Below are positions 15,968 to 42,532 of a DNA stretch of 47,305 nt, piece after piece (the stretch's first letter is position 1; the number at the start of each line of letters is the position of its first letter). The stretch lies in assembly GCA_014384375.1 (NCBI GenBank), contig JACNFY010000012.1, forward strand, positions 1-47,305, written 5' to 3'. A program made the translations under genes and the position numbers. Below the pieces are notes generated by a model. That model did no database searches. It was not told where the DNA came from and saw only the letters and a program-made list of their open reading frames with translations. The stretch is from Nanobdellati archaeon. GTDB lineage: Archaea; Nanobdellota; Nanobdellia; Woesearchaeales; GCA-2686295.

Positions 15968-15968
15968 A

Positions 15969-17507: not shown

Positions 17508-17538
17508 ACATCATAAGATGAAGGACATAAAGAAATGA
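17504..17538 (+). other. Two coupled micro-ORFs bridging module 10 and the HAD gene
   Basis: The module 10 stop lies in ATGA at 17504, opening a five-codon frame (MNIIR, stop 17519-17521). That stop overlaps ATG 17518, which opens a six-codon frame (MKDIKK, stop 17536-17538). That stop in turn overlaps the HAD start ATG 17535. Three stop/start overlaps thus step across the gap. The pattern is read directly; a role in termination-reinitiation is inference, and A-rich sequence makes ATGA common by chance. Confidence 0.3.
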
Positions 17539-18122
17539 TAAAATTAATAATATTCGACATGTCGGATGTTTGCTCTAACTCAGAAGAGCCTCCGTTCATA
17601 GAAGGTTTCATGAAAATTCATGGATTACCCGAAGTTTTTGAAGAGGAATACTATGAATTAGGCTACAAGGCAGAGATGGACGAAATATCAGGAAGAAAAG
17701 TATGGGAAACACTCATCAAAAAATACAATATACAGGAAACGCCTGAAGAGATAATGGAAGCAATGATGAAGACAAAAGAATTCTATCCTGAAATGCTGGA
17801 GTTTACAAACAACTTAAGGGAAAAACACAAGGTTGTCTGCTTTACCAATTACTGCGAGGATTACTGGAAGCTTTTCGAAGATAAAATAAAAGATTACTTC
17901 GATGAGGTCATAGTGTCATACCAATTGAAGACAAGGAAGCCAAAACCAGAAGGTTTCAAAATAATCTTAAGAAAATACAATGTAAAGCCAGAAGAGGCAG
18001 TATTTATAGATGATACTAAGAAAAGCGTTGAACAAGCAGCAAGCTTAGGCATAAAAGCAATACAATTTAAAAACAAAGAACAATTACTTGAAGAATTGGA
18101 AGGTATAGGTGTTATAAAATGA
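17535..18122 (+). CDS. HAD-superfamily hydrolase (subclass IA-like)
   Basis: 195 residues. HAD motif I is IIFDMSDVC near residue 5: the nucleophile Asp is present but the +2 acid/base position is Ser rather than Asp, a departure also seen in FDxGxV-type HAD proteins. Motif II is CFTN, motif III the Lys in TRKPKPEGF, motif IV FIDDTKKSVEQA. A helical cap lies between motifs I and II (about 20-80). Such proteins usually cleave phosphate from small metabolites. Its place after ten phosphotransfer modules suggests that it removes or recycles phosphate from their products, which is inference. It overlaps the acyltransferase by ATGA. Confidence 0.85.
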   Translation: MIKLIIFDMSDVCSNSEEPPFIEGFMKIHGLPEVFEEEYYELGYKAEMDEISGRKVWETLIKKYNIQETPEEIMEAMMKTKEFYPEMLEFTNNLREKHKVVCFTNYCEDYWKLFEDKIKDYFDEVIVSYQLKTRKPKPEGFKIILRKYNVKPEEAVFIDDTKKSVEQAASLGIKAIQFKNKEQLLEELEGIGVIK

Positions 18123-19216: not shown

Positions 19217-19230
19217 ATACTTTAAATATA
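19209..19230 (+). promoter_or_regulatory. Putative TATA region for the alpha/beta-hydrolase gene
   Basis: ATATATAAATAC at 19209-19220 and TTTAAATATA at 19221-19230 sit 21-42 bases before the ATG at 19251, matching archaeal TATA spacing. This suggests that a second transcription unit (19251-24425) begins here, including module 11 and the ATP-grasp gene, separate from the ten-gene array. Confidence 0.45.
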
Positions 19231-19250
19231 ATTACTGGTAAAGAGATACA

Positions 19251-20213
19251 ATGATTAGACCAGTCTTCATATTCTTGTTAAGTCTAGAAGAAAAAGTTGA
19301 GCCAGCTAAACCTGAAACTCCAAAACCTTCTGAAGTTAAAAAACAATATGTTGAAAAAAAGTATGAAGAAATGAAAAAAGAATATAAACCATTAAAAAAA
19401 AAAGCTGAAGCTGCCTCTCAACGAAGCTTAAGCAACAGAACAAAAGTATTCTTTGAGAACAGCAAAAACATCGTAAGAAACGCAGTAGACAACACTGTCG
19501 GACTAGGGATAGCCAAATATCAGAACTACAAGACAAAAAAACATTTCAAGAAAGATGCTTCCAGTACTGATGAGATAGTATATTTGATGCACGGGCTTTT
19601 TCAAAACGAGGGCTCTCAGTGGAGGTTGGCTAAACAACTCAGAAAAGAAGGAAAGCACGCATATCACTTGAAAGGTCACCATTCTCTGCCAAGAAAAGAA
19701 AATGCAGACAAATCTTTTGAACAAATTGATGAAATGCATAAATACACAGAATTAAAAAATGCTGAAAAGAGAAGAGACACATTTAGCGGACACAGCAGCG
19801 GAGGAGATGTTGGAATATACATGGCTGGAGACGAAAGAATCAGACAATATGGAATAAAGAAAGTCCAAGCAAGAGCACCAGCACCTTCTGGAATAAAAGC
19901 AAAAACACTGCCACAAAAGCTATTAGTACCATTTGCAAGCGCGGATGATGTGAGAAAAACTAGTGGCAAGAAACACGCTCTTGAAATCACAAAAAGGAAA
20001 CCAACAGTTAATGTTCAAATAGTTGCTGGAAAATACGACAACCTTGTGAGGCCTTCAAATGCAGTCTATAAGCACGCAAAAGCACATTATATTATCGAAC
20101 ATCCAGATTCAACTCATTTTGGAACAAGCGGCGGTAATAAAGAAATGAACAAAATCACAATTGATCTGATGAATAAAGCCGACAAATACAAAGAAGAATA
20201 TCAAACTGCATAA
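19251..20213 (+). CDS. Alpha/beta-hydrolase fold protein (lipase/esterase-like)
   Basis: 320 residues. The N-terminal 100 or so residues are highly charged and probably coiled coil, after a short hydrophobic start (RPVFIFLLSL). The hydrolase core begins at VYLMHGLFQNEGSQW (about 110-124, oxyanion HG). The nucleophile elbow is GHSSGG with Ser182, the likely acid is Asp263 in AGKYDNLV, and the catalytic His is 289 in STHFGT. A complete triad argues for an active esterase, lipase or acyl hydrolase; substrate unknown. It overlaps the next gene's start by one base. Co-occurrence with an acyltransferase and a phosphate acyltransferase hints at acyl-group chemistry. Confidence 0.78.
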   Translation: MIRPVFIFLLSLEEKVEPAKPETPKPSEVKKQYVEKKYEEMKKEYKPLKKKAEAASQRSLSNRTKVFFENSKNIVRNAVDNTVGLGIAKYQNYKTKKHFKKDASSTDEIVYLMHGLFQNEGSQWRLAKQLRKEGKHAYHLKGHHSLPRKENADKSFEQIDEMHKYTELKNAEKRRDTFSGHSSGGDVGIYMAGDERIRQYGIKKVQARAPAPSGIKAKTLPQKLLVPFASADDVRKTSGKKHALEITKRKPTVNVQIVAGKYDNLVRPSNAVYKHAKAHYIIEHPDSTHFGTSGGNKEMNKITIDLMNKADKYKEEYQTA

Positions 20214-21025
20214 TGAAAAATAATTTCTTCAAGGGGGGATTAGATCTCTTAATAATTGACATAGACGACACTTTTATCTATCATCGAACAGTTGCAGTGG
20301 CAAATAGAATATTCCTCAAACTGATGTACAGCCTTTTTCAAAAAGAGATAGACCCTGATAAGATATACACAACCAAGCGGTTGTTGTTATTGATAACAAA
20401 ACTGATAATTCTAAATTTTTTTAGATTCAAGCCAAGCACAGATAAAATAAAAAAACTCATTAGACTAAGCATAACAGCCTTTTATTTACACATCCTTCAG
20501 ATTATAAGAGAGACAAACAACCGCTTTTTCAATATCATCAGCAACGAGAAAATAATTCAGATATGGATTAAAACAGTTATTTCTAACGAGGTTGAAGAAG
20601 AAGAATTTCAACTTTCAAAAACAACAATCAAAAACAATCTCAACAAAGAAGTATTATATATATACAATTCATTAAAAAGTCTAAACCCAAATATGAAGAT
20701 TATAGCAATATCACAAAATTTCGTTGTTGAAGAAGACCCAATCAAAAAAATATTGAAACTTGACATGATCAAATCAAACAAGTTCATAAGCGATGAGAAA
20801 GGAACAATAAAAAGTTTTGAACTTAATGTTAAAAATAAAGAAGATAAAAAAACAATTGCAGATAAAGCTATAAAAAAATTTAGATCAAGAAATATTGGCT
20901 TGTTTATAGAGGATTATGATGATATATACTTACTGGAGTTAAAAAATCTGAGATTTGTACTATACAAGAAAAAATTGAAAAGATTTATATGCAACAAGAA
21001 ATTCAAAGCAGTATCATTTAGATAA
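20213..21025 (+). CDS. HAD-like protein, probable phosphatase
   Basis: 270 residues. Motif I is LLIIDIDDTFIYHRT near residue 12 with both aspartates; motif II is probably AISQN near 167; a Lys-rich segment (NKEDKKTIADKAI) supplies motif III; motif IV is GLFIEDYDDIYLL near 232. About 130 mostly helical residues, including a strongly hydrophobic stretch (LLLLITKLIILNFFRF, about 57-72), sit between motifs I and II as an unusual cap that may touch the membrane. The class resembles phosphoserine phosphatase-like HADs. It is the second HAD in the cluster and immediately precedes the phosphate acyltransferase. Confidence 0.7.
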   Translation: MKNNFFKGGLDLLIIDIDDTFIYHRTVAVANRIFLKLMYSLFQKEIDPDKIYTTKRLLLLITKLIILNFFRFKPSTDKIKKLIRLSITAFYLHILQIIRETNNRFFNIISNEKIIQIWIKTVISNEVEEEEFQLSKTTIKNNLNKEVLYIYNSLKSLNPNMKIIAISQNFVVEEDPIKKILKLDMIKSNKFISDEKGTIKSFELNVKNKEDKKTIADKAIKKFRSRNIGLFIEDYDDIYLLELKNLRFVLYKKKLKRFICNKKFKAVSFR

Positions 21026-21032
21026 ACGGGTG

Positions 21033-22016
21033 ATGAAAATAGATCTAATCAAAAAAATGGAAGAGATTGCAAAGAAGAAACCAGTTAAAGTGCTTGTATG
21101 CGAAGGATGGGATGAAAGATTCTTAAGAGCAAGTGCACAGATTCTAGAAAGAAAACTTGCAAAGATAGTGTTATTAGGAGATCCTAAAGTTGTCAATGAA
21201 GAAGCCAAGAAGTTCGGTGTGGATGTGAGCGGAGCAGAGATAGTTGACTATAAAAATTCTGAGCTTAAGAAAGAATTAGCAGAGAAGCTTGTTGAAGTTA
21301 GGAAACATAAGGGAATGGACTTGAAAACAGCGAAGAAGTTGATCGAGAACGAGAACTACTTCGGATGCATGTATGCTTACTGCGGCTATGCAGACTCAGT
21401 TGCAGGTTCAGCTATCTGCCCAACAGCAGAGCTTATGAGGCCTGCCCTTCAGATACTGAGAAAGAAAAAAAGAATCGTCTCAGAAGTCGTTGTAGTGAGT
21501 GATGTAAAGAATAACAGAACACTATTCATAACAGATGTCAGCTTAAACATAGATCCTAATGCAGAGCAACTAGCTCAAATAGCTCTAAATGCAGTTAAGT
21601 GTGTAAGAAGCTTTGGAATAGTTCCAAAAGTTGCGCTACTATCATTTTCAACAAAAGGAAGTGGTGGAAACCATCCAGCCATACAAACAGTGAGAGACGC
21701 ATTGGAGATTGTGAAAAAAGAGGATCCAAAGCTACTCATCGACGGAGAGATGCAAGTGGACGCTGCTGTAAGCGAATTCGGAGCCCAAAGGAAATGTCCA
21801 GATTCACCGCTAAAAGGAAAGGCAAATATACTAGTGTTCCCAAATCTAACAGCAGCAAACATATTCGGACACTCAATACTCCAATTCTCTGATATGACCA
21901 TGGATTTCACAATGCTGGAAGGTCTGATGAAGCCAGTCGGCATAGTCGGAAGAAGCACTCCTTTAGACACTGTTAGAAATGTAATGGTTAGTGGTGCAAT
22001 GGAAGCGAATTCATGA
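21033..22016 (+). CDS. pta: Phosphate acetyl/butyryltransferase
   Basis: 327 residues, close to a typical single-domain Pta. It would interconvert acyl-CoA plus phosphate with acyl-phosphate plus CoA. Visible family features include VLVCEGWDERFLRASAQI at the N-terminus, YCGYADSVAGS, the central GSGGNHPAIQTVRDAL, and C-terminal NLTAANIFGHS. A GTG three bases upstream is an alternative start. The gene overlaps module 11 by ATGA, linking acyl-phosphate metabolism to the phosphotransfer genes. No acetate kinase is visible in the window. Acetyl versus longer acyl preference cannot be read from sequence. Confidence 0.88.
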   Translation: MKIDLIKKMEEIAKKKPVKVLVCEGWDERFLRASAQILERKLAKIVLLGDPKVVNEEAKKFGVDVSGAEIVDYKNSELKKELAEKLVEVRKHKGMDLKTAKKLIENENYFGCMYAYCGYADSVAGSAICPTAELMRPALQILRKKKRIVSEVVVVSDVKNNRTLFITDVSLNIDPNAEQLAQIALNAVKCVRSFGIVPKVALLSFSTKGSGGNHPAIQTVRDALEIVKKEDPKLLIDGEMQVDAAVSEFGAQRKCPDSPLKGKANILVFPNLTAANIFGHSILQFSDMTMDFTMLEGLMKPVGIVGRSTPLDTVRNVMVSGAMEANS

Positions 22017-23524
22017 AAATGAAATATATCCAAGGTCTGGCTAAGAAGAAACTAAAACATTGGGCTGGAAAGAAATGGTATCATCAGAGGTTTGACGGCT
22101 CACCTTACTTACTACATATGATTGCAGAAGCAGAGATATTGCCTGATAAAAGAAAAGAATTAGGCGGTAATCTGGTGCATTACTGCTTCTTTGACAACGG
22201 AAAGGCTGACTGGTATATTGAGATGGGGGCGATCAAGAAGATATACACAGCAGTCATTGAAGGAGGCAAGAAGAATCCTAACTTAAGTTCTGATCTTATC
22301 AAGGAATGGCTACCAGCTGAAGAAGCATTTTACAAGAAATGCATAGAGATAGGAAAGATTAATCTATCTAAACTGAGCGATAAGGAATTGATTGCCCTGC
22401 ACGACCAGTTTGTTAAGGTCACTCTCAGCAAGAACAGCACAAGCTCGATCATCGACGGGTTTGCATTGGGCACAGACCAGATGATAGCAGATAAGATAAG
22501 AGTTGTTTATGATAAGCATCCAGTGAAGGATAAAATGAGATTCACAGAGGTATTTTCAACACTCACAGCACCTGTACACCTATCATTCATAAACGAGGCA
22601 GAGATTGGACTTTTAAAAGTAGCACTCAAGGTGCAAAAACACAGCAAAGATAAGAAAAAGCTCTTAGAAGAGCATCAAAAGAAATTCTTCTGGACAAGAA
22701 ACAACTATGTTGATGCCCACGTGCTAAGGGTGAAATACTTTGAGAAAGAGCTTAACAAGATTCTAAAAGTAAAGAAAGACATCAAGGAAGAACTAGAAAG
22801 AGTAGAGAACACGCCGAAAGAAAACAAGAAAAACAAGGATAAACTGATGAAAGAATTGAAACTCTATAAAGAACTAAAATTCCTCATAAAAACATCTGAG
22901 GATTTCACGTACTGGCAGGATGAGAGGAAAAAAGGAACATTCTGGACAGCCCACTACGCTTCACAATTGCTTGAAGAGATAGGAAAAAGAGTTGACATAC
23001 CAGCTCACAATCTTAAGTATATGTCTCCCAGGGAAGTAAGCAAGATCTTTGAGAACAAACCAAATATAAATATACTTAAAGAGAGAGAGAAAAACGGTGT
23101 GCTCTACTGGGACAAGGAAGGTCATGAAGCAGTGTATGGACAGGAATGCACTAATATCAGAAACGCCATATTGCAAGAGAAAGATATCTTAGACATTGAT
23201 GATTTCCGAGGACTAACTGCCTCCTTGGGAAGAGTGGTTGGAAAAGTCAAGATTGTAAAGAGCGCAAAAGAGATTGATAAGGTTAAAGAAAAAGATATTC
23301 TTGTAGCAGTCATGACAAGGCCTGATTATGTTCCTGCTATGAAAAGAGCTGCAGCAGTGGTTACTGACGAAGGAGGCGTGACATGCCACGCAGCCATTGT
23401 TACCAGGGAACTAGGTATTCCCTGCATTATAGGAACAAAGATAGCCACAAAAATACTCAAGGACGACATGACTGTTGAGGTTAATGCCAATCACGGTATT
23501 GTCAGGATAATTCGCGATGTTTAA
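22013..23524 (+). CDS. RPH-like helical + swivel protein, module 11, beside the ATP-grasp gene
   Basis: 503 residues; the only module outside the ten-gene run. The swivel histidine is His459 in [17 protein letters not shown], with the tail VNANHGIVRIIRDV (ANHG subgroup, closest in look to modules 9 and 10). Helical landmarks FFWTRNNYVDAH and TYWQDERKKGTFWTAHYA are the clearest in the window. It overlaps pta by ATGA and the downstream ATP-grasp gene by eight bases, so kinase and acceptor are translationally linked. Domain order here (binding+swivel, then ATP-grasp) is the reverse of fused RPH. This pair is the best candidate for the ancestral or core unit. Confidence 0.89.
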   Translation: MKMKYIQGLAKKKLKHWAGKKWYHQRFDGSPYLLHMIAEAEILPDKRKELGGNLVHYCFFDNGKADWYIEMGAIKKIYTAVIEGGKKNPNLSSDLIKEWLPAEEAFYKKCIEIGKINLSKLSDKELIALHDQFVKVTLSKNSTSSIIDGFALGTDQMIADKIRVVYDKHPVKDKMRFTEVFSTLTAPVHLSFINEAEIGLLKVALKVQKHSKDKKKLLEEHQKKFFWTRNNYVDAHVLRVKYFEKELNKILKVKKDIKEELERVENTPKENKKNKDKLMKELKLYKELKFLIKTSEDFTYWQDERKKGTFWTAHYASQLLEEIGKRVDIPAHNLKYMSPREVSKIFENKPNINILKEREKNGVLYWDKEGHEAVYGQECTNIRNAILQEKDILDIDDFRGLTASLGRVVGKVKIVKSAKEIDKVKEKDILVAVMTRPDYVPAMKRAAAVVTDEGGVTCHAAIVTRELGIPCIIGTKIATKILKDDMTVEVNANHGIVRIIRDV

Positions 23525-24425
23525 AATGGAAAAGAAAAAAGTAAAAACAGAGGAAGGAGAGTACACTCCTGAAAACATTCTATGGCTTAAAGACTTGAAC
23601 AAGGATGATATTCCAATCGTTGGTGGCAAGGGAGCCAACCTTGGAGAGATGTTTCATCATTTCAACATTCCTAACGGCTTCTGCATAACAGTTCATGGCT
23701 ACAAGGACTTCATGGACGAAACAACTATAGGAGCACATATCCATGGATTACTTGATAAACTAGATGTTGAAGGCACAGAAGAACTTGATAAAGTCTCAAA
23801 AGAGATTAGAAAGCTAATCATGAAGCAGAAGTTCCCTAAAGACTTAAGAGAAGACATCTTGAAGAACTACCACAAACTGAAACACAAGATTGTGGCTGTG
23901 AGAAGCTCTGCAACAGCTGAGGATTTACCAACTGCCAGCTTTGCAGGACAGCAGGACACATATCTGGAGATAGAAGGAGATAACGACGTAATAACTGCTG
24001 TGCAGAAGTGCTGGGCATCGTTATTCACAAGCAGAGCAATATACTACAGGGAAAAGAACAACTTCCACCACAGAGATGTCTTGATATCAGTTGTCATCCA
24101 AGAGATGATAGATGCAGAGTATGCAGGTGTGATGTTCACTATCGACCCTGTGAACAAGAAATACATCTTGATAGAAATGGTAGAAGGACTTGGAGAAGCT
24201 CTAGTGTCAGGACAAGTAACGCCAAATTCTTATTTCTTGAAGAAAGACACACATGAAGTGAATGAGAAGATGGAGCATTTTGACCTAGACATAAAACTTG
24301 TTGAACAAGTCTCAAAAATAGGAGAAAAAATAGAGAAGCACTACGGCAAGCCACAAGACGTAGAGTTTGCTTTTTACAAAGGAAAACTGTTCATTCTGCA
24401 GTCAAGGCCGATAACAACGTTGTAA
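23517..24425 (+). CDS. Stand-alone PEP-synthase/RPH-type ATP-grasp domain
   Basis: 302 residues covering one complete PPDK_N (PEP/pyruvate dikinase ATP-binding) domain. Visible elements are VGGKGANLGEM with the nucleotide-binding Lys, VPNG-like PNGFCITVHGYKDFM, AVRSSATAEDLPTASFAGQQ, AGVMFTIDPVNK, MVEGLGEALVSGQVTP, and the closing ILQSRPITTL. In RPH and PEP synthase the chain continues from this last motif into other domains; here it stops. In the family this domain phosphorylates the swivel histidine, with ATP going to AMP plus phosphate in RPH and PEP synthase. As the only such domain in the window it is the probable shared kinase for the thirteen swivel modules (inference). A second ATG at 23526 is possible. 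Confidence 0.9.
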   Translation: MFKMEKKKVKTEEGEYTPENILWLKDLNKDDIPIVGGKGANLGEMFHHFNIPNGFCITVHGYKDFMDETTIGAHIHGLLDKLDVEGTEELDKVSKEIRKLIMKQKFPKDLREDILKNYHKLKHKIVAVRSSATAEDLPTASFAGQQDTYLEIEGDNDVITAVQKCWASLFTSRAIYYREKNNFHHRDVLISVVIQEMIDAEYAGVMFTIDPVNKKYILIEMVEGLGEALVSGQVTPNSYFLKKDTHEVNEKMEHFDLDIKLVEQVSKIGEKIEKHYGKPQDVEFAFYKGKLFILQSRPITTL

Positions 24426-24435
24426 TTATTTTATA

Positions 24436-26103
24436 CTATTTCTTTCTCCAGATAAAATAGACTGGAATAAGAACAAGAATAACATTTAGTAAAGGTTTAA
24501 ACTGAAAATCTAACACCTGCTCTAATAATAAACTCTGAGGTCCTTGACTTAATGTTAAAGGCAAATAGTGTTCAAATAAAGGATTTCCAAAAGGGATAAA
24601 GTTATCAACAGCTTTTCCAAGTCCTGCTTCTTCAGGGATTTGAAAGCCTAATACATTAAAGAATATAGATATCACTATGAATGGAATTATATACTTCAGT
24701 TTTATCTTCTTAAAAGAGAACAACAAAGGAATCATCAGGAAAGGCATTAGAGGAGTTAAATTACGAAGACCAAAACAAAAGCCACCCCACCAGATAGGAA
24801 ACCGTGCATTTAATATTAGAAAAGTTCCAAGCAAGAACCATATAAGAAAAGCTTCTCGTTTATGAGTTTTGTACATAAAGAACAAACCCACAAGAGAGAA
24901 TAGCAATATTGGGTAATAGAAAAATAAACCTCTATAAGGAAAAAAAGTTATTCTCAGCAATATATTAAGTCTGTCAGGTTTCATAAAACTCAATAAATTC
25001 TTGGTTCGAAGCCAAAAAAAAGAAAGAGACGATTTATCGACATAACCAGCACAATTCTTTTTCATTGACTCATCAGATATTTCTAAGCAATAGCTTGAAT
25101 CAAAATCTGTAAGTGCATTACAATAAGATTTCCAATCAAGATCCACAATGTGCTCACAAAGATAAGAATCTTTTACAGCGTTGGCAACATGGTATATACA
25201 CTCATCAGTGTTTGAAAGCCTTTTACACATATTAATATCTGATGCAGAGATTGCCTCACACAAAACCTTTTCATCAGATGTAGAAACACTATTACAAAAA
25301 GTGGGAAAAGCCATTATAATACTATTGTCTGCGTAGTCATATCCTAAACGAAGAGGATGATCAAAAACTGAGTAATTATAAGCCATAAATATAATTAATA
25401 AAGGCAAAGCTCCAAGAACAAATCTCATCCTTGACTTAGCACCTTTAAGATAAAAGAAAGTTCCAATTAATACAAAGACCAAAGGGATTGCAATCAATAA
25501 AGATAATGAGCCAAAAAAACCAGCCCAGAAACTATAATCTTTTTTCTCTTTATTTGTTTTCAAAGCCAAATAAAAGCAGAGAAACCCAAAAAAAGTGCTT
25601 GGAACATGTTCATAAAACATGCTTGAATAAATAAACACCAAGGTTCCAAAGCCATATATCATGGTAAGGATTTTTCTATGTGCCTCTTTTTTAGAAAATA
25701 GTTCTGAAATTCTATAAACTAACACTACTGAAAGCGCACCAAGTAGTGCTGAAGTAAATATAATGCTAATAAAGACAAGTCCTAACCACGACTTGCTAAC
25801 ACCTGTATTCCAAAGATTATCATGTGTCTCAGGCACACCAAAAAAGAATTTAAAAGGAGCATAAACAAACACTCCTAAGAAACTCATCCCAGGAACCTTC
25901 TCAGAATAATAATGACCCTTATAATAAGCTCTATCACCAGTATTCTTGTAGTAAGAGTCAATTGACAAACTACCATCATCAACTATTGCCAAAGTTAAAT
26001 CAAGACGGGAATTCTCATTCCAATTAATATACATTGAAAAAGAAGAGAAAATAATCCAGAAAGTAAAGAATAATTTCCACTCAAATCTGTTGAAAACCCC
26101 CAT
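24436..26103 (-). CDS. Polytopic membrane protein, GT-C glycosyltransferase-like, with Cys-repeat insert
   Basis: About 555 residues with around ten hydrophobic segments. The first luminal loop contains acidic residues (AIVDDGSLSID) and YYSEKVPGMSFLGV, resembling the K-PG signature in PMT/ArnT-like GT-C enzymes that use polyprenyl-phosphate sugars. Between membrane segments (about 270-356, counted from an upstream TTG/ATG at 26115) is a soluble insert with eight cysteines spaced 9-14 apart (274, 286, 297, 306, 320, 332, 343, 355) in a C-x2-I/L repeat. I chose ATG 26103 because a TATA-like sequence lies about 27 bases upstream. The gene converges on the ATP-grasp gene with 10 bases between. 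GT-C assignment is moderate. Confidence 0.7.
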   Translation of the reverse strand: MGVFNRFEWKLFFTFWIIFSSFSMYINWNENSRLDLTLAIVDDGSLSIDSYYKNTGDRAYYKGHYYSEKVPGMSFLGVFVYAPFKFFFGVPETHDNLWNTGVSKSWLGLVFISIIFTSALLGALSVVLVYRISELFSKKEAHRKILTMIYGFGTLVFIYSSMFYEHVPSTFFGFLCFYLALKTNKEKKDYSFWAGFFGSLSLLIAIPLVFVLIGTFFYLKGAKSRMRFVLGALPLLIIFMAYNYSVFDHPLRLGYDYADNSIIMAFPTFCNSVSTSDEKVLCEAISASDINMCKRLSNTDECIYHVANAVKDSYLCEHIVDLDWKSYCNALTDFDSSYCLEISDESMKKNCAGYVDKSSLSFFWLRTKNLLSFMKPDRLNILLRITFFPYRGLFFYYPILLFSLVGLFFMYKTHKREAFLIWFLLGTFLILNARFPIWWGGFCFGLRNLTPLMPFLMIPLLFSFKKIKLKYIIPFIVISIFFNVLGFQIPEEAGLGKAVDNFIPFGNPLFEHYLPLTLSQGPQSLLLEQVLDFQFKPLLNVILVLIPVYFIWRKK

Positions 26104-26125
26104 AAAAATTAACAAAAAACGAATG

Positions 26126-26161: not shown

Positions 26162-27208
26162 ATGAAAAAAAGTCAAAAGAAGTATTGGATTTTGGTTATC
26201 ATCATTTTAATACTTTTTCTCATAGATCAGAAGTTTTTCTTAGGTGAGAGTAAAGCCAGATATAATTATGATGATTCACTTCTATGGATATTAAAGCCTA
26301 ATCTTGATAAAAATATCAACTCAAAAGGGTTTATGGATTACGAACACGAATATGAAAAACTCGATCATACAAAAAGGATAATACTTCTTGGAGATTCATT
26401 CATGGGGACAATCATTAATAGCTCATTAGAAAACACATATCCAAGACTTCTTGAGAAAATGTTAAATGAGTATAATTTAGACTATGAAGTAATAAACTTG
26501 GGAGTATCGGGTTATGGAACAGACCAAGAATTGTTGATGTTGAAAAAAGAAGGGTTAAAATATAATCCTGATATAGTTGTATTAGGGTTTTACATGGAAA
26601 ATGATATTCCTGACAATAGTAAAAAAATATTTGAGGTGACAGAAGGAGAATTAGTGGAAAATAAAAAGATAGGCTTTAAAGCCAATAAATTGCTATTCAA
26701 AATATTAAGTTCAGTAGCAGGTAGATCCGCAACATATAATATGTTCACAAAATATGGCGGATCAATGACTCACATATTAATTATTTCAGGAATTTATTCT
26801 CATATTCCATATTATGGATGGAAGATTTTTGAAGACCTGGAGCTAAAATATTTAGATGACGATGTAGAAAAAACTAAAATATTATTAAAAGAGTTTCAAC
26901 AAGTATGTGAAGAGAATAATATTTCACTTTATATTTTATTAATTCCTTCAATCTTAGAAATTAATAATGATATACAAACACATAATTTCACAAAACCAAA
27001 AGACTTGAACTTCGAGCAAATAAAGAATGAGATTATAACTTTCTTGGAAGAAAACAATATTAGATATATAGATCTTTATCGAATTTTTTCTGAAGAAAAA
27101 TCAAGATTATATGTCAAGAATAATATCCACTGGAATATAAAAGGTCAAGAAATAGCTGCAAATATAACATTTCATTTCTTAAAAAATTCAATGTATGCAG
27201 ACAAGTAA
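26162..27208 (+). CDS. SGNH/GDSL-hydrolase-like membrane-anchored protein
   Basis: 348 residues. An N-terminal hydrophobic anchor (YWILVIIILILFLID, about 8-22) precedes an SGNH fold: block I ILLGDSFMGT with the candidate nucleophile Ser, block II NLGVSGYGTDQE with Gly, block III FYMENDIPDN with Asn, and block V NIHWNIKGQEIA with His. The residue usually Asp three positions before the His is Asn here, so the triad may be altered. Family members remove or transfer acyl groups on lipids and surface glycans outside the cell. Location beside glycosyltransferases fits O-acyl modification of a surface polymer. The last 37 bases overlap the convergent GT2 gene. Confidence 0.75.
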   Translation: MKKSQKKYWILVIIILILFLIDQKFFLGESKARYNYDDSLLWILKPNLDKNINSKGFMDYEHEYEKLDHTKRIILLGDSFMGTIINSSLENTYPRLLEKMLNEYNLDYEVINLGVSGYGTDQELLMLKKEGLKYNPDIVVLGFYMENDIPDNSKKIFEVTEGELVENKKIGFKANKLLFKILSSVAGRSATYNMFTKYGGSMTHILIISGIYSHIPYYGWKIFEDLELKYLDDDVEKTKILLKEFQQVCEENNISLYILLIPSILEINNDIQTHNFTKPKDLNFEQIKNEIITFLEENNIRYIDLYRIFSEEKSRLYVKNNIHWNIKGQEIAANITFHFLKNSMYADK

Positions 27209-28065
27209 CCAAGAAAAAAAGCATAATCAAGTATTAACATAAAAAAAAAGAAGAATACTGCTTTAAAAAAATAAAGTTTAATAACTCTTAATAAAGATAA
27301 TATAGGAGTCACAAAGAATACCAATAGTACACCTAAGAAACTTGTTTTCAAAGCAGGCTTAAACGAAGAACCCCATTTTTTCTTTAGAAAAAAATAGTTT
27401 TTTCCTTTGTAGAATTGTTCTTTTAAAGATGGAATTAGTGGTTTATTATTTTGCCTTAGAATTTTCAGAGGATTATATTGATGTTTTAGATTCGAGAACT
27501 TCATCCTAATAGCCAGATCTATATCTTCAAGACAAGGTAAATTTTCATCAAACAATCCAACTTTGTTAAACACTTCTTTTCTAAAAGCAGCAGCTCCTGA
27601 AGCAGGCAAAATAGCATCAGGAAATTTTCTTCTACTATTAAAAACACTCAATGTTCCTCTAAGCCTTGTTTTATAATGTAAATCGTTTATCTGAGAATAA
27701 AAGCTTTTATCTTTAGTAAGGATGCTAAAAGAAATAACATCAACTGATTTATGTTTCTTGAAAAAATCATTAATTGTAGCTAAATAGTTTTCTGGGAATA
27801 AATAATCATCTGCTACAAAACAAATAATATCTCCTTTGGCATTCCTTATGCCATTATTCCTAGCAGTAGAAACACCAGAATGTTTTTGCTTAATATACCA
27901 AACATCATATTTATTAGCAATAGAATAAGTATTATCTGTTGAACCATCATCAACTACTACAATTTCATATTTTTTTTTAGAAATATCTTGTCCAGATAAG
28001 GATTCAAGACAGGTTTTCAAAAGTTGAGCACGATTAAAGGTTAAGACCACAACCGATATTAACAT
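27172..28065 (-). CDS. GT2-family glycosyltransferase with C-terminal membrane segments
   Basis: 297 residues. The GT-A fold is shown by ISVVVLTFNRAQLL, VVVDDGSTDNTYSIA (nucleotide-sugar Asp pair), GVSTARNNGI and FVADDYLFPENY, where the usual DxD reads ADD, then CLEDIDLAIRM supplying the catalytic ED. Two hydrophobic segments at about 240-295 anchor it to the membrane. Inverting GT2 enzymes transfer sugars from nucleotide or dolichyl donors to glycans or lipid carriers. The start is preceded by GGAGGTTT (28073-28080) and overlaps the upstream stop as TAATG, indicating an operon with the GT2-radical SAM fusion. Confidence 0.86.
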   Translation of the reverse strand: MLISVVVLTFNRAQLLKTCLESLSGQDISKKKYEIVVVDDGSTDNTYSIANKYDVWYIKQKHSGVSTARNNGIRNAKGDIICFVADDYLFPENYLATINDFFKKHKSVDVISFSILTKDKSFYSQINDLHYKTRLRGTLSVFNSRRKFPDAILPASGAAAFRKEVFNKVGLFDENLPCLEDIDLAIRMKFSNLKHQYNPLKILRQNNKPLIPSLKEQFYKGKNYFFLKKKWGSSFKPALKTSFLGVLLVFFVTPILSLLRVIKLYFFKAVFFFFFMLILDYAFFLGYLSAYIEFFKK

Positions 28066-30002
28066 TATGCAAACCTCCTTGTCACACTTATGAATTTCTT
28101 GATTTTATGAAGAAATGAATCCTGATAATTACAGTTTAATAACACACATTTATCTTTACAATAGTATATTTGCTTTCTTTGTTTTTTGGCTTGCTGAGAA
28201 CTCCATATTTTTCTAGGATTATCCTCTAGAATGTTCCCTATTGGTGGGAAACTATAACAATACTTAACATCACCCCTGTAAGATATTAAGAAGTTTTGAT
28301 TGCCAACAAAACAACGCATAGACACAGATTTATTATTAAGAAAATATTGTTTCATCAATCTTAACTGTTTTTCAGAATTTAATATTTTTGATTTCTTCAT
28401 AGATTTGATTGTGTTAAAAATCTTATCTACTTCATTAGAATTAGGCCAAGAAGGGTTGTTCTTATACCAATATTGATTATAAGTTTTATCATGGTAAGGC
28501 TTCTGTGTTAAACATTGGAATCTTATTCCGTTACTATAAGAATCTACAAACTCAACTAATGACTTAATAGATTCAAGGTTTTCTTTCATTAAAACTGTAC
28601 TAATGAAAGTTTTGAAAGAAAAATCCTTAGACAATCTTATCACATTTTTTAAGTGCTCACAACTACCTTTAGCACCAACGATTGAATCATGAATTTCAGG
28701 ATTGACTGATTCTAAAGAAACACTTAGAAATGAAAGACCTGAAGATTCAAGCTTTTGCATCGATTTTGAATTCAACAAAGAGCCATTTGTAAGGAGATGA
28801 GTCATGATTCCATTCTGAGTGCAAAAACTTATCACATCATATATGTCTTTTCTCAACATTGGTTCTCCACCACTAATTGTAAATACAAAAGAACCAAGCC
28901 AATTCTTTAGCTTCAAAATAATATGTTTGATTTCTTCCCTTGATAAGAAATCTTTGTTATTCTCTTCCCAGATACCACACTTGACACAGCGATAATTGCA
29001 TCTAGAAGTTGTTCCAATTGTTATATTTGTTGGTAAGGGCAGACCGATATGAAAAAGAGTTTTTATTCTAGTTTCAAGATGTCTAATACCAATAATTAAT
29101 GCAGTTTTCGAAGAAGTTCTTAATCTAAGCGTGCCTAGAAAATGAGCGAAGTTTTTCATTAGTAACAAAAAGAAGAGAACTATCGATTTTATTCCAAATC
29201 GTTTTACAAGCTTCCTTATTGTAGAAAAACTAATCAAAGAAACAGATGTGTTTTTGTAATGTTTACCTAAAATGTTTTTTAACTGACAATCACCCAAACC
29301 ATAAACATAACTCTGTTTTAAGAAAGAAAAAACAGAATCTTTTCGCTTATTAAAAGCCTTTATTTCTGGAATAAATAATATCTTCACATTCTGAGTATCT
29401 AATCGTCTTCTTAATAATTCATCTTCTCTCGTTATCGGAAATTCCATTAGGAAAAACATATCAAAAAATTTCTTTTTAACAGAAAAATTTCCTGTTCCTA
29501 GCAAACTTATATAGATTTTACCATCATGTCTGGCAATTTTTTTTTCAATATTAACATCCAATATAAATTTCCAAAGCAGGCCTATCAAATGATATTTATA
29601 ATAAACATCTAAACCTCCCTGAATAATGAGCTCCTGTTTGAATTGCTTATGATAATAAACAATTTTCTCTATCCAATCAGGATTAGCAACAAAATCATCA
29701 TCAATAAAAGCTATCACTCTTCCTTTTGATTTTTTTATACCTAAACTTCTTACAAACCCAGGTTTTCCTGAATGATGTCTGCAAGAAACTAAGGATATAT
29801 CTTTTATCTTAGAATGTTTGATTAATCTTGAAACATCATAATTAGAACAATCATCAACAACAATTACTTCAAATTTGTGTTTAGGAAATGTCTGAGATGA
29901 TAAAGAATCAAGACAACCTTGTAAAAGTAACTCTCGATTAAAAGTTGGTATAATAACACTAACTTCTATTTGGGATTTCATATTTTCTTTAATTAGTCCC
30001 AT
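28065..30002 (-). CDS. GT2 glycosyltransferase-radical SAM/SPASM fusion
   Basis: 645 residues from ATG 30002; an ATG at 30071 would give 668 and one at 29981 would give 638. Numbering here is from 30071. The N-terminal GT-A domain has VSVIIPTFNRELLL, VIVVDDCSN (Asp73-74), FIDDDF (124-126) and REDELL (216-219). A hydrophobic segment lies near 297-312. A radical SAM domain follows: CNYRCVKC (Cys358/362/365) and SGGEPMLR (400-407). The C-terminus carries a SPASM-like set (Cys587, 605, 638, 642, 647) that probably binds auxiliary Fe-S clusters. One chain thus combines sugar transfer and radical chemistry. A TATA-like GATTTTTTAAAG (30026-30037) about 30 bases before 30002 supports that start. Confidence 0.82.
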   Translation of the reverse strand: MGLIKENMKSQIEVSVIIPTFNRELLLQGCLDSLSSQTFPKHKFEVIVVDDCSNYDVSRLIKHSKIKDISLVSCRHHSGKPGFVRSLGIKKSKGRVIAFIDDDFVANPDWIEKIVYYHKQFKQELIIQGGLDVYYKYHLIGLLWKFILDVNIEKKIARHDGKIYISLLGTGNFSVKKKFFDMFFLMEFPITREDELLRRRLDTQNVKILFIPEIKAFNKRKDSVFSFLKQSYVYGLGDCQLKNILGKHYKNTSVSLISFSTIRKLVKRFGIKSIVLFFLLLMKNFAHFLGTLRLRTSSKTALIIGIRHLETRIKTLFHIGLPLPTNITIGTTSRCNYRCVKCGIWEENNKDFLSREEIKHIILKLKNWLGSFVFTISGGEPMLRKDIYDVISFCTQNGIMTHLLTNGSLLNSKSMQKLESSGLSFLSVSLESVNPEIHDSIVGAKGSCEHLKNVIRLSKDFSFKTFISTVLMKENLESIKSLVEFVDSYSNGIRFQCLTQKPYHDKTYNQYWYKNNPSWPNSNEVDKIFNTIKSMKKSKILNSEKQLRLMKQYFLNNKSVSMRCFVGNQNFLISYRGDVKYCYSFPPIGNILEDNPRKIWSSQQAKKQRKQIYYCKDKCVLLNCNYQDSFLHKIKKFISVTRRFA

Positions 30003-30085
30003 GATTATAAATTTTATCAAAAATACTTTAAAAAATCTAAACCTGATTAAAAAAATATTAAAACCAAACATAATTCTTTATTAAG
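30003..30085. promoter_or_regulatory. Divergent promoter region
   Basis: A/T-rich spacer between the GT2-radical SAM gene (-) and the TylF-like gene (+). A leftward TATA candidate lies at 30026-30037 and a rightward one, AAAAAATATTAAAAC, at about 30050-30064, each about 25-35 bases before its start. No inverted repeat stands out. Confidence 0.4.
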
Positions 30086-30814
30086 ATGAATAATAAGTTC
30101 ATTAAAGATATTCTAGATGCCAATATAAATCTTTCATGGAAAGAAAAGCTCGCTGTTAAGTTCACAAATCTCTTTAATAAAAATAAATTTTTTCATCTTC
30201 AGTATAAAAAAAGAACTATGATTAGTGTTGAAAGAGGCATAAATCTCTACCATATGCTTAATCAAACAGTTAATGCAAATATACCTGGCGAAGTAGTAGA
30301 GCTTGGTTGTTATGAGGGAATTACAGCAATAATAATGCAAAAAACTCTTGATAAATTAAAGTCTAAAAAAGATCTCCACGTTTTTGACTCATTCCAAGGA
30401 ATTCCAGGCACAGATATTAATGATGGAAAAATATTGAAAAAAGGTGCAATTTATACAAACAAAGAAACACTAGTTAATAACTTTGAAAAATTCAGAACAA
30501 AAAAACCAGTTATTCATGAGGGATGGTTTGACAAAACATTAAAAAATCTTCCAAAAAAAGTTTGTTTTGCGCATTTAGATGCAAATTTGTGTTCTTCAAC
30601 AAAGCTGGCTCTTGAGAAAGTTTATCCTAGAGTTAGCAAAGGAGGAATAATTCTTATTGATGATTATTGTGGTCAAGATTTTAATAAGCCATATAACCGA
30701 ATTCCTGGTGTAAAAAAAGCATGTGATGAATTCTTCAGTAACAAAGAAACAGTCAAAGTACTAATATCAACTAGTTTTGATGGAATCAATCAAGGTTTCA
30801 TAAAAAAGGAGTAA
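30086..30814 (+). CDS. TylF/macrocin O-methyltransferase-like SAM methyltransferase
   Basis: 242 residues. The SAM-binding motif I is EVVELGCYEGITAIIMQ (about 72-88), followed by LHVFDSFQGIPG, a hallmark of the TylF family, then FAHLDANLCSST and GGIILIDDYCG. The family's usual metal-binding HxDxDLY appears as HLDANLC: the first Asp remains, the second is Asn and Tyr is Cys. Metal binding may therefore differ. TylF-type enzymes O-methylate sugars in antibiotics and surface glycans. The gene is five bases from murB, so it may methylate a glycan product of this operon (inference). Confidence 0.82.
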   Translation: MNNKFIKDILDANINLSWKEKLAVKFTNLFNKNKFFHLQYKKRTMISVERGINLYHMLNQTVNANIPGEVVELGCYEGITAIIMQKTLDKLKSKKDLHVFDSFQGIPGTDINDGKILKKGAIYTNKETLVNNFEKFRTKKPVIHEGWFDKTLKNLPKKVCFAHLDANLCSSTKLALEKVYPRVSKGGIILIDDYCGQDFNKPYNRIPGVKKACDEFFSNKETVKVLISTSFDGINQGFIKKE

Positions 30815-30819
30815 AGCTA

Positions 30820-31659
30820 ATGTATCTCGAAAAACATGCTTTAATTGAAAATTCTTTTGGAGTTAAAAGCAGATGTGAGTTTTTAGCCAAAACAGAATCA
30901 ATTGAAGAAATTATGGAATGCTTAAGGTTTGCAAAAGAGAATAATTTGAAAGTAAATATCTTGGGAAGAGGCACAAACATATTAATTTGTAATAATGAAA
31001 TTGTGGGTCTAATAATCTCGATTAACAATAATTTATCAGACTATTCTATTCAAGATAATATAATAACTTTACAAGCAGGAATTGGACTCTCTGAAGCTTC
31101 AAAGATAGCTTTAAAGAATAGATTGTCAGGTCTTGAGTTTGCAGAAGGGATTCCAGGTACTATTGGAGGGGCTATTTTTGGCAATGCAGGTGCTTTTGGA
31201 GAGATAATAGGAACGCTTGTTCAGAAAGTTAAAATAATTGATATAGAAAAACTGATTGTTAAGGAAAAGAAAAACTTGCAATTCTCTCATCGACAAAGTA
31301 ATATTGAGAAGAACAGAGAAATAATTATTGAGGTTGAACTAAAACTAGAAAAAAAGAATAAGAAAGAGATCCAAGAAAAAATGAGTCTTTTCAGAGAAAT
31401 AAAAAAAGAAACCCAACCAAAAGAAAGATCTGCTGGTTGCATATTCAAAAACAATCAAGCAGGGAGAATCATTGATGAATTAGGGTTAAAAGGCACAAAG
31501 GTAGGGGATGCCGAAATCTCTGAAAAACACGCTAATTTCATAGTAAACAAAGGAAAAGCAATGGGTTCTGACATGTTGAAATTGATCGAAATAATAAAAA
31601 AGAAAGCAAAGAAAGAAAAGAACATTGATTTAGAATTAGAAATTAGTATTTTGAAATGA
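30820..31659 (+). CDS. murB: UDP-N-acetylenolpyruvoylglucosamine reductase MurB
   Basis: 279 residues. MurB reduces UDP-GlcNAc-enolpyruvate to UDP-MurNAc with NADPH and FAD. FAD-domain motifs are clear: ILGRGTNILI (LGGGSNLL-type), GLEFAEGIPGTIGGAIFGN followed by AGAFGE, and FSHRQSN in place of F.YR.S. The catalytic general acid position (Ser229 of E. coli MurB) is Cys in SAGCIFKNN. The C-terminal Glu is in DLELEISI. Length and the missing Tyr loop fit type II MurB. The gene overlaps murA by ATGA. MurB is a bacterial peptidoglycan enzyme; archaeal pseudomurein does not use MurNAc. Horizontal acquisition is likely, but base composition matches the neighbours. Confidence 0.9.
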   Translation: MYLEKHALIENSFGVKSRCEFLAKTESIEEIMECLRFAKENNLKVNILGRGTNILICNNEIVGLIISINNNLSDYSIQDNIITLQAGIGLSEASKIALKNRLSGLEFAEGIPGTIGGAIFGNAGAFGEIIGTLVQKVKIIDIEKLIVKEKKNLQFSHRQSNIEKNREIIIEVELKLEKKNKKEIQEKMSLFREIKKETQPKERSAGCIFKNNQAGRIIDELGLKGTKVGDAEISEKHANFIVNKGKAMGSDMLKLIEIIKKKAKKEKNIDLELEISILK

Positions 31660-32909
31660 AAAAAATAATTATTAACGGAGATAAGAAGTTAAAAGGAAGA
31701 GTCAGTATTAGCGGGTCTAAAAATGAAAGCTTGGCAATTCTATGCGCAGCACTTTTATCAACTGACAGAGTAGTTTTGAAAAATGTTCCAAATATCAAAG
31801 ATATTTCTGTAATGAAAAACTTGATTGAGAACATTGGAAGCAAAATTACCTCCTCAGATAATATTATAATAGCGCCTCAAATTATTAACCACATTATCAA
31901 AAGCAATAATGTAGGATTAATTAGAAACTCTATTTTACTTTTAGGTCCTTTAATTGCAAAGAGAAAAAAAGCGATAATTCCTGTGCCTGGAGGATGTAAT
32001 ATTGGCTCAAGACCAATTAATCTTCATTTGGAAGGATTAAAAAAATTAGGCGTTGATATAAAAGTTAGCAACGGTTTAGTTTCTGCTCAAACAAAAGAAC
32101 TTAGAGGTGCAAAGATAAAACTAGGATTTCCAAGTGTTGGAGCAACAGAAAGCATTATGATAACTGCAACAGTGGCAGAAGGTCAGACTATAATCTATAA
32201 TGCCGCCAGAGAATCAGAGATTCAAGGTCTTGCAAGGTTCTTAAACCAGATGGGCGCAGATATCAAAGGGATGGGAACTGACACACTTGTTATTAACGGT
32301 AAAAAAGAGTTGTCTGGAACAGAATATTCTGTGAGTCCTGATCGGATTGAAACAATAACTTACATGATTTTAGGAAGTTTTCCAGGAAATGAAATCAGGG
32401 TTGAAAACACGAATAAAGAAGACGTATGTGAGGTTATGCAAACATTAAGAGACATGTGTGTTTCGATTGAAAATGAAAGAACTGATATTATAGTAAGAGG
32501 CGACAAAGATTTGAAATCAGCGAATATAATTGCCAAGCCATTTCCTAATTTTCCAACTGATGCTCAAGCCTTAATAACTCCTTTATTATGTTCTGCAAAA
32601 GGGGAAAGCAGTATTACTGATAATGTGTTTCCAGAAAGATTCACACATATTAAAGAATTGAGAAAGATGGGTGCACATATAATACTTAAAGGAAACAAAG
32701 CGACCATATTTGGACAATACAAGCTTAAAGGTGCAAAAGTTATTTGTCATGATCTAAGAGGAGGAATGGCTTTAATTCTCGCAGGTTTGGTTGCAAAAGG
32801 AAAGACAATAATCGAAAACAAACACTACATAGATAGAGGCTATGAGAACTATATAGAGAAATTGCAGTCATTAGGTACAAAGATTAATCTGTTTAACCAT
32901 AAATTATAA
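31656..32909 (+). CDS. murA: UDP-N-acetylglucosamine 1-carboxyvinyltransferase MurA
   Basis: 417 residues, the normal MurA length. MurA transfers enolpyruvate from PEP to UDP-GlcNAc, the first committed step to UDP-MurNAc. Catalytic landmarks are present: ISGSKNESL (Lys22-Asn23 equivalents), VPGGCNIGSRPINLHLEGL with the active-site Cys (Cys115 equivalent), FPNFPTDAQA with the catalytic Asp (305 equivalent), and HDLRGGMALILAGL with the Arg (397 equivalent). The Cys implies fosfomycin-sensitive chemistry by family knowledge. EPSP synthase shares the fold but lacks this set. MurC-F ligases are not in the window, so UDP-MurNAc may be used as a sugar in a surface glycan rather than in peptidoglycan (inference). 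Confidence 0.93.
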   Translation: MKKIIINGDKKLKGRVSISGSKNESLAILCAALLSTDRVVLKNVPNIKDISVMKNLIENIGSKITSSDNIIIAPQIINHIIKSNNVGLIRNSILLLGPLIAKRKKAIIPVPGGCNIGSRPINLHLEGLKKLGVDIKVSNGLVSAQTKELRGAKIKLGFPSVGATESIMITATVAEGQTIIYNAARESEIQGLARFLNQMGADIKGMGTDTLVINGKKELSGTEYSVSPDRIETITYMILGSFPGNEIRVENTNKEDVCEVMQTLRDMCVSIENERTDIIVRGDKDLKSANIIAKPFPNFPTDAQALITPLLCSAKGESSITDNVFPERFTHIKELRKMGAHIILKGNKATIFGQYKLKGAKVICHDLRGGMALILAGLVAKGKTIIENKHYIDRGYENYIEKLQSLGTKINLFNHKL

Positions 32910-40352: not shown

Positions 40353-41693
40353 TTATTTGTTGATTATATTCTCGACTCTGGATACCAAATCTTCTAAGAG
40401 TTCTCTTGTCTTTGCTTCTGCTCTTAGCCTGAGAACAGGCTCTGTGTTGCTTTTCCTCACGTTGAACCAGTAGTCATCGTAGTTAACTGTGATGCCATCA
40501 AGCCTTGATTGTTTGCCATCACTGAATTCCTGTGCCACTTCTTCTATCTTCTTGTCCTTTAATTCATTTGACTCAAGTTCATAGTTTAACTCTTCAGTCT
40601 TGACCCAGGCTTCTTTGAGTGGAGCTAGTAATTGTGATAGTGGTTTTTGTTCTTTATTTAGATATCCTATCATATCTAACAAACAAAGTATTGTTGCTTC
40701 TGCACCTCCTGCTTCTTGAAGGTACATATGACCCGCTATTTCCCCACCAACTCTAGCATCATTTTCAATCATTGTCTGCTTTATAAACACATGACCAACC
40801 CTGCTAATCACAGGGATACATCCCATTGATTTCACAACATCTAGAAACGCTCTGCCAAGCAGCAAATCATGGACTATCCTGTCACCTGGTTTAGCCAAGT
40901 ATTTTGTTAGCAGTATTAACGCATAGTCTCCTGGCAACTCCTCACCTTTCTCATCTATAAATATTATCCTATCACCATCCGCATCAAAGACAGCTCCAAA
41001 AGCAGCTCCTGTTTCTAAAACTGTTTTCTTCACTTGTTTTTGTGCTTCTCTCTTTATAGGATTTAATCCGTGTGTTGGATTATCAAGATTGTAATCCATG
41101 TTTAAGCCAATATAATCAACTCCTACTTTTTCTAAGATTTGCTTTGCAACAGGGCCTGCCATACCATTGCTTCCATCCACAACTACTTTTAACCCTGTAA
41201 GCTTTCCTACAGCACTTTTTGTTACAAAATCGACGTATTCATTTATGTAATCTTCCTGTTTCACAGTTCCTTTGCTATCTGCTAAAGCAATTTTTTCAAG
41301 TCCTCCAGAATGTATTAACTCCTCAACCTCTTTATAACCAGAATTATAACTCATAAATTCCCTGCCACCTTTCACAGCTTTCAAGCCATTGAAACCTCTT
41401 GGAAGATGGCTAGCTGTAATTATGACTCCTGCATCAAATCCTTTCTTCCATTTGAAGTAGTAGAACATAGGCGTAGTTACCAAGCCAGCATATGTAACAT
41501 CTGCTCCTTGGTCAGTCACACCTTTTATCAGTGCATCTGAAAGCTCTTTAGAACCTTCTCTTGCATCTTGACATACAAGAAAGTCTTTTGCTTCTAGAAG
41601 AACAACCATCGCTCGCCCAATGTTGTAGGCAAGCTTCTCGTTCACCTCTTCAGGGTATCTCCCTCTTACATCGTATGCTTTAAAAACATCCAT
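40353..41693 (-). CDS. Phosphomannomutase/phosphoglucomutase (alpha-D-phosphohexomutase)
   Basis: 446 residues from ATG 41693 (a GTG at 41714 is possible). The alpha-phosphohexomutase signatures are the catalytic serine loop GVIITASHLPRGFNG, the metal loop FDADGDRIIF, the sugar-binding loop GGEIAGHMYL (Ala replaces the usual Ser of GGExSGH), and the phosphate loop RKSNTEPVLRLR. It interconverts hexose 6- and 1-phosphates. It follows the nucleotidyltransferase gene by two bases, so the pair probably makes Man-1-P or Glc-1-P and then the NDP-sugar. Confidence 0.9.
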   Translation of the reverse strand: MDVFKAYDVRGRYPEEVNEKLAYNIGRAMVVLLEAKDFLVCQDAREGSKELSDALIKGVTDQGADVTYAGLVTTPMFYYFKWKKGFDAGVIITASHLPRGFNGLKAVKGGREFMSYNSGYKEVEELIHSGGLEKIALADSKGTVKQEDYINEYVDFVTKSAVGKLTGLKVVVDGSNGMAGPVAKQILEKVGVDYIGLNMDYNLDNPTHGLNPIKREAQKQVKKTVLETGAAFGAVFDADGDRIIFIDEKGEELPGDYALILLTKYLAKPGDRIVHDLLLGRAFLDVVKSMGCIPVISRVGHVFIKQTMIENDARVGGEIAGHMYLQEAGGAEATILCLLDMIGYLNKEQKPLSQLLAPLKEAWVKTEELNYELESNELKDKKIEEVAQEFSDGKQSRLDGITVNYDDYWFNVRKSNTEPVLRLRAEAKTRELLEDLVSRVENIINK

Positions 41694-41695
41694 CT

Positions 41696-42532
41696 TTATA
41701 GGAATCCTCGCCACTTCTCTTCTGCTACTTTGAATCTCTCTGGAGTTCCTGTATCAAACCATTGTCCACTGAATGGATATCCGTATAGTTCTTCCTCAGC
41801 TGCTAACTTTGGAAAGACATCTATTTCTAACATAGCATATCCTTCAGGAACATAATCAATGACTTGAGGGTCTAGGATGTACAAGCCGGCATTTATGAGG
41901 TTTGATGGAGTATTATCTTTTGGTGGTTTCTCAACAAAAGTCATTATCTTATTTCCATTCATCACAGCGACTCCGTATGCAGAAGGATCCTTAACACTTG
42001 TCAAAGCTATAGTGGCGCATCCTCTGTTTGAATTGTGAAAGGCAAACATGTCATCTAAATCTATATCTTTCAATTCATCTGCGTTGCACATAATGAACGA
42101 TTCTTTCAGAAAGGGTCTTGCAAGCCTTAACGGCCCTGCAGTTCCCAAAGGATTTTTTTCTTCAATATAGGTTATATTCACACCTAGTTTCTTTCCATCA
42201 CCAAACTTTTTCTTTATCGTATCTGTTTTGTAACCAACAGATAATATTATATCTTTTATCCCGAATTTTTTGAATAATTCTATATTGTATTGCAGGATTG
42301 GTTTGCCTTTTATCTCCAGCAATGGCTTTGGCAGCTCTTTGCTTAAGAATTTCAATCTGCTTCCTTTTCCACCTGCTAATATAAGTGCCTTTGTTGGTTT
42401 ATCAACTCCTATTGCTTGCCTAAGAAGTAGTTCTACTGCATGGCTTCTATTCTTTATTCTACTACCATCTACACTTTTGTCTATCTGTTCAAGAAGACTT
42501 CTTTCTAATGTTAATGTCACCCTCTCCTTCAT
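41696..42532 (-). CDS. Sugar-phosphate nucleotidyltransferase with N-terminal ribbon-helix-helix domain
   Basis: 278 residues. Residues 1-46 look like a CopG/Arc-type ribbon-helix-helix domain: RVTLTLERSLLEQIDKSV, then IKNRSHAVELLLRQAIG. Residues about 48-278 are a nucleotidyltransferase: KALILAGGKGSRLKFLSKEL, PKPLLEIKGKPILQYNI, then CNADELKDIDLDD in place of NGD, MTFVEKPP, NAGLYILDP, and the C-terminal WFDTGTPERF. It should form an NDP-sugar from sugar 1-phosphate and NTP, most likely GDP-mannose or a glucose analogue. The added DNA-binding-like domain suggests oligomerisation or self-regulation. A leftward TATA-like GATTTAAAAAC lies at about 42556-42566. Confidence 0.87.
   Translation of the reverse strand: MKERVTLTLERSLLEQIDKSVDGSRIKNRSHAVELLLRQAIGVDKPTKALILAGGKGSRLKFLSKELPKPLLEIKGKPILQYNIELFKKFGIKDIILSVGYKTDTIKKKFGDGKKLGVNITYIEEKNPLGTAGPLRLARPFLKESFIMCNADELKDIDLDDMFAFHNSNRGCATIALTSVKDPSAYGVAVMNGNKIMTFVEKPPKDNTPSNLINAGLYILDPQVIDYVPEGYAMLEIDVFPKLAAEEELYGYPFSGQWFDTGTPERFKVAEEKWRGFL

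Follow-up and report, generated by a model that had tools for sequence, protein, structure and literature searches.

Within the window, by which we mean the whole stretch of 47,305 nucleotides that was analysed, two genes on the forward strand encode MurB (UDP-N-acetylenolpyruvoylglucosamine reductase; 30820..31659, 279 aa) and MurA (UDP-GlcNAc enolpyruvyl transferase; 31656..32909, 417 aa). The genes share 4 bp, and the coordinates given in an earlier note on this DNA are exact. MurB matched TIGR00179 with 193.2 bits, above the curated cut-off of 144.5, and contains an FAD-binding domain (PF01565) and a MurB_C domain (PF02873; 102 bits in Pfam). Likewise, MurA matched TIGR01072 with 472.9 bits, above the curated cut-off of 392.7, while the aroA model gave just 109.6, and on these scores the protein is clearly distinct from AroA. 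The earlier note had also described both catalytic sets as complete, including the loop Cys and the Asp of MurA, and every position that we checked bears this out. MurA retains K22, N23, R90, C114, R119, D302, R328, R368 and R394, a set that includes the loop Cys (C114), the Asp305-type base (D302) and Lys and Arg residues of the PEP site; the last seven of these we take to be equivalent to R91, C115, R120, D305, R331, R371 and R397 in E. coli. MurB retains R158, C207 and E274, which presumably correspond to R159, the Ser229 position and E325 of the E. coli enzyme. At the proton-donor position MurB has a Cys (C207) where E. coli has Ser229; the same Cys occurs in the solved structure of Thermus caldophilus MurB (2gqt), aligned as SAGCAFKN, and in two further bacterial rows of the alignment (L193 and L202), and judged from these sequences Cys as the MurB proton donor is a natural variant.

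Comparison with the sister genome G214 gave dS and dN values of 0.77 and 0.11 for murB, and of 1.49 and 0.21 for murA, with dN/dS against the sister genomes of about 0.14–0.17 and about 0.14–0.21, respectively. Both genes are under purifying selection and are thus neither decaying nor recent debris. The genome that contains the window (G000; 1.27 Mb, 95.5% complete, 0.55% contaminated) is archaeal, as had been claimed, and the flanks of the pair carry archaeal genes for TyrRS, for subunits of the exosome and for proteasome alpha. The earlier note had named bacterial contamination as grounds for dismissing the pair, and contamination does occur in these MAGs, where G372:C54 (carrying SecA) and G292:C33 (carrying ScpA/ScpB and MurD) look bacterial. 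However, G214 is an independent assembly that has the same block next to the same archaeal TyrRS, exosome and proteasome neighbours, which already refutes contamination for the window; in addition, MurB is found family-wide, and when MurA and MurB were compared with bacteria in trees the archaeal sequences formed their own clades, far from those sampled. We regard the chance that this is a contaminating or chimeric contig as negligible. The two bacterial-looking contigs within archaeal assemblies are a caution for MAG-based claims, and the MurB/MurF-type hits that they carry (L103 and L185, respectively) were discarded. Of the other MurA-like hits in the phylum, those inspected in G014, G111 and G205 (23–28% identity) were AroA in shikimate operons, and MurA fragments at the contig ends of G247 and G138 were given no weight.

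MurB scored over the cut-off in six of the eight genomes of the family, including all five that are at least 90% complete, and in 8 of the 353 genomes of the order (about 2%), one of these eight being G372 with its bacterial-looking contig. The six family MurBs formed one clade (SH-aLRT 97), and MurA separated with support of 100 into two clades, type A (G000, G214 and G282) and type B (G126, G281 and G069); when a single joint MurA clade was forced it had a higher likelihood (p-AU 0.56). Placement of the archaeal MurA and MurB among bacteria was weakly supported, and a scan of named genomes for close relatives returned bacteria only, nearly all at 33–44% identity. Given the single MurB clade and the joinable MurA clades, the murBA pair was most likely acquired once from a bacterium, before the family radiated. 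The size of the order and the gene content suggest that the lineage is Woesearchaeales (DPANN). Synteny and trees support murBA as a resident trait of the family that came from its ancestor and exists in two diverged versions.

A gene for a TylF-type methyltransferase (30086..30814, forward strand; PF05711, 94 bits) ends 5 nt upstream of murB, with the same gene order in G214, and tylF, murB and murA are probably an operon in which tylF is first. Beyond it on the reverse strand are a GT2 glycosyltransferase fused to a radical SAM/SPASM domain (28065..30071; PF00535, PF04055 and PF13186), a fusion that is conserved in G214 (81% identity) and G126, and another GT2 glycosyltransferase (27172..28065; PF00535, 105 bits). 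These are followed by an AlgX-like SGNH/GDSL hydrolase (26162..27208, forward strand; PF13472, PF00657 and PF16822), which from its sequence is possibly a glycan O-acyl enzyme and is matched by homologous proteins of the corresponding clusters in G126 and G282, and by a GT-C-like membrane glycosyltransferase of the LA_3751 type (24436..26115, reverse strand; NF047440, 66 bits, under the cut-off of 200). The GT-C-like protein has a homologue near murBA in G126, a search for a relative of solved structure found none, and it is a candidate for use of a polyprenyl-phosphate sugar. Together, these genes agree with the previous description of the neighbours as glycosyltransferases and a sugar-type methyltransferase. 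On the other side of murBA, a phosphohexomutase and a nucleotidyltransferase (40353..42532, reverse strand; PGM_PMM and NTP_transferase domains) have Man1P-GTase and Arch_glmU as the best NCBIfam matches, each under cut-off, and possibly supply a UDP-sugar. The island from 24.4 to 32.9 kb is of low GC with unusual trinucleotides; surface-glycan loci are frequently low in GC and odd in composition. Identity between G000 and G214 is 94% for the GT-C protein, 86% for GT2 and 67% for MurA, a patchwork of the kind to be expected if a surface-glycan locus had been exchanged.

The absence of Mur ligases noted earlier for the window extends to the whole G000 genome, in which a search for MurC-F found none and FolC alone carries a Mur ligase domain (Mur_ligase_M, PF08245). 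Likewise, G000 gave no match to PF00953 for an MraY/WecA-type transferase, to PF07478 for the D-Ala-D-Ala ligase Ddl, or to MurG in a single-sequence search made without a profile, and the pMur ligase set of pseudomurein synthesis is also not in this genome, with no Mur ligase besides FolC. By gene content G000 does not encode the canonical steps that lead from UDP-MurNAc to lipid II, within the limits of a completeness at which a missing ligase operon is not fully excludable. From orthology and the intact active sites we infer that MurA would transfer enolpyruvate from PEP onto UDP-GlcNAc and that MurB would reduce this to UDP-MurNAc, a product that most likely remains peptide-free because no Mur ligase, MraY or Ddl is detectable in G000. 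The lack of MurC-F, MraY and Ddl also gives better support to a glycan as the destination, and we favour, with moderate confidence, an explanation in which UDP-MurNAc supplies a surface glycan that the neighbouring glycosyltransferases assemble. The sugar would probably be carried there on a polyprenyl phosphate, with the GT-C-like membrane protein as transferase, and may be modified by the TylF methyltransferase and the SGNH enzyme. Transfer from UDP-MurNAc to polyprenyl phosphate and then to a surface glycan would be the simplest reading of these genes.

The loci of sister genomes also bear on this explanation. In G126 and G281, which belong to the same genus, a GT2 domain precedes MurB within a single ORF (L093:10536-12236 and L094:13751-15343, respectively). 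The GT2 part of these fusions matches dolichol-P-mannose synthase 5mlz and the cyanobacterial GT2 protein sll0501 with E values of 4e-5 to 1.5e-4, although chondroitin synthase scores equally against it and the match to polyprenyl-phosphate transferases is weak. In G282, murBA adjoins a Wzm/Wzt exporter and GT4/GT2 genes, and Wzm/Wzt is also present in G126. Glycosyltransferases, an SGNH hydrolase, low GC and an ABC exporter beside a sister murBA are features in common with O-antigen and Wzm/Wzt surface polysaccharide loci, in which a MurAB pair would however be unusual. A rival explanation is that MurA and MurB were recruited to make a different lactyl-ether nucleotide sugar for the surface glycan, and not UDP-MurNAc. 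Such a change of substrate is unreadable from sequence, which counts against a firm call on the product; it would be consistent with the stems of the two archaeal MurA clades, which are long at 0.88 and 1.0 changes per site, and with the position of murBA in a variable glycan island, and the MurA homologue NikO, which was among the PDB hits, does act on another substrate. However, all catalytic and PEP-binding residues are kept, MurA and MurB both score over curated cut-offs and the pair has been retained together, and we consider recruitment to another sugar rather improbable.

The earlier note thought it possible that an archaeal surface glycan contains a sugar like muramic acid. This idea gains from the setting in a glycan cluster, from the missing ligases, MraY and Ddl, and from what sisters show, namely the fusions of GT2 to MurB and the Wzm/Wzt genes next to one sister pair. 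As a reading of genes, it meets a serious rival in a murein-like polymer, owing to a GT51 protein in G000 itself and a near-complete precursor pathway in a relative. Under this alternative, UDP-MurNAc from MurAB would be loaded onto a lipid, either bare or bearing a short peptide from ligases that escaped recognition, and polymerised by GT51, with the transpeptidase perhaps cross-linking the product. The G000 protein is class A PBP-like, with GT51 and transpeptidase domains (L144:1042-3582 on G000:C32, 846 aa; PF00912, 160 bits; PF00905, 24 bits), and matched TIGR02074 with 238 bits over residues 127–649. It shares the GT51 and transpeptidase domains and the ED, SxxK, SxN and KTG motifs of known class A PBPs (PBP1A/PBP2), all of them intact (ED, S432-F-V-K435, SNN504 and KTGT634), but unlike these it lies in an archaeal context, its total score is below the curated PBP_1a cut-off and its transpeptidase score is weak. 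The gene adjoins an archaeal L7Ae gene and is conserved in the genus, with synteny in G214, G280 and G281; in these three, EF-2 and NDK genes of archaeal type are nearby. A transpeptidase with intact motifs would be odd if no peptide is made, which speaks against the glycan explanation, and the GT51 enzyme could possibly polymerise a MurNAc-containing lipid-linked unit.

Fuller Mur gene sets were found in two other genomes. The murBA contig of G126 also contains a MurF-like Mur ligase fused to an M23 peptidase (L092:4247-5851), a FemAB-like gene and a Ddl-like gene. In G396, which is of the same order but another family (stretches L102, L104 and L184, from contigs C2 and C7), about 13 kb of C2 encodes MurA, MurB, MurG-like, MraY-like, MurF-M23 (L102:14073-15815), FemAB-like and MurC-like proteins, together with GT51 and a MATE/MOP-type flippase. 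This cluster directly adjoins an archaeal YchF GTPase and is homogeneous in composition, and C7 carries MurE (596 bits, cut-off 373) near topoisomerase VI genes. The MurG, MraY and MurC scores in G396 are under the strict equivalog cut-offs, no MurD was seen among its Mur ligases and Ddl was not found in this genome. Its MurE gene is flanked by two transposase-like ORFs. G126 and G396, which represent two archaeal families, have MurF-M23 proteins that are homologous to each other, as are their FemAB-like proteins, and this, as well as the archaeal setting of both the G000 PBP and the G396 contigs, argues for a murein-like polymer.

Across the order, GT51 was over cut-off in 18 of 353 genomes, among them the single-contig genome G004, and it accompanied MurB more often than expected (4/7 genomes with MurB vs 14/346 without; Fisher p 1.5e-4, with kinship ignored). 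On the other hand, the majority of these GT51-bearing genomes have no MurB, G126 combines MurAB and a ligase but has no GT51, and G000 is without Mur ligases, MraY and Ddl, and for G000 we judge a reduced murein-like polymer, our second choice, to be unlikely. The wider conjecture that an archaeal clade produces a muramic-acid polymer of its own, which would amount to a murein-like wall outside Bacteria, with a series that runs from near-complete in G396 through G126 to MurAB and a PBP without peptide ligases in G000, is one that we offer tentatively and with some doubt. For G000 itself, delivery of UDP-MurNAc to a surface glycan remains our preferred explanation.

In bacteria, MurA and MurB perform the first two committed steps of peptidoglycan synthesis, and the G000 enzymes belong to the same orthologous families, with the same catalytic residues and reaction order. 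They differ in having an archaeal host, in lying inside a surface-glycan island and in the absence of detected MurC-F, MraY and Ddl. In pseudomurein, talosaminuronic acid replaces muramic acid. Pseudomurein synthesis in Methanobacteriales and Methanopyrales likewise involves bacterial-type wall enzymes in archaea and employs Mur-type ligases (PMC11915815), of which G000, with MurAB but no ligases, is the reverse. Bacterial-wall enzymes in archaea, including DPANN, also comprise Woesearchaeotal murein transglycosylases and archaeal peptidoglycan hydrolases, but these are degradative and have been read as weapons or attachment proteins (PMC8204110, PMC9723730, PMC12352652), whereas the MurAB of the window is biosynthetic. 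In the open literature, with subscription journals and preprints outside our scope, we found hydrolases and pseudomurein only, and no report of biosynthetic MurAB, class A PBPs or peptidoglycan synthesis in DPANN. Muramic acid serves as a chemical marker for bacteria, and textbooks set archaea apart by its absence. A native and selected MurAB, together with class A PBPs and most of the peptidoglycan pathway in a relative, makes the question of archaeal muramic acid or murein directly testable. If archaeal muramic acid is real, there would be consequences for its use as a biomarker, for the view that peptidoglycan hydrolases in archaea are weapons against bacteria and nothing else (PMC12352652), and for ideas of cell-wall evolution.

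Elsewhere in the window, positions 103-17507 and 22013-23524 hold a tandem array of about a dozen proteins of ~485 aa that end in a PEP-utilizers phospho-His swivel domain. One ORF (4426-8670) contains three copies, and His446, in first-copy numbering, is invariant. Between the array genes, positions 17535-22016 encode a HAD phosphatase, a hexapeptide acetyltransferase-like protein, two uncharacterised proteins and a phosphotransacetylase, and beside the array there is a single, separate PPDK_N ATP-grasp gene (23517-24425). A predicted model (pLDDT 78) matches rifampin phosphotransferase 5fbt with an E value of 1e-13, and the array looks like many substrate modules served by one ATP-grasp kinase.
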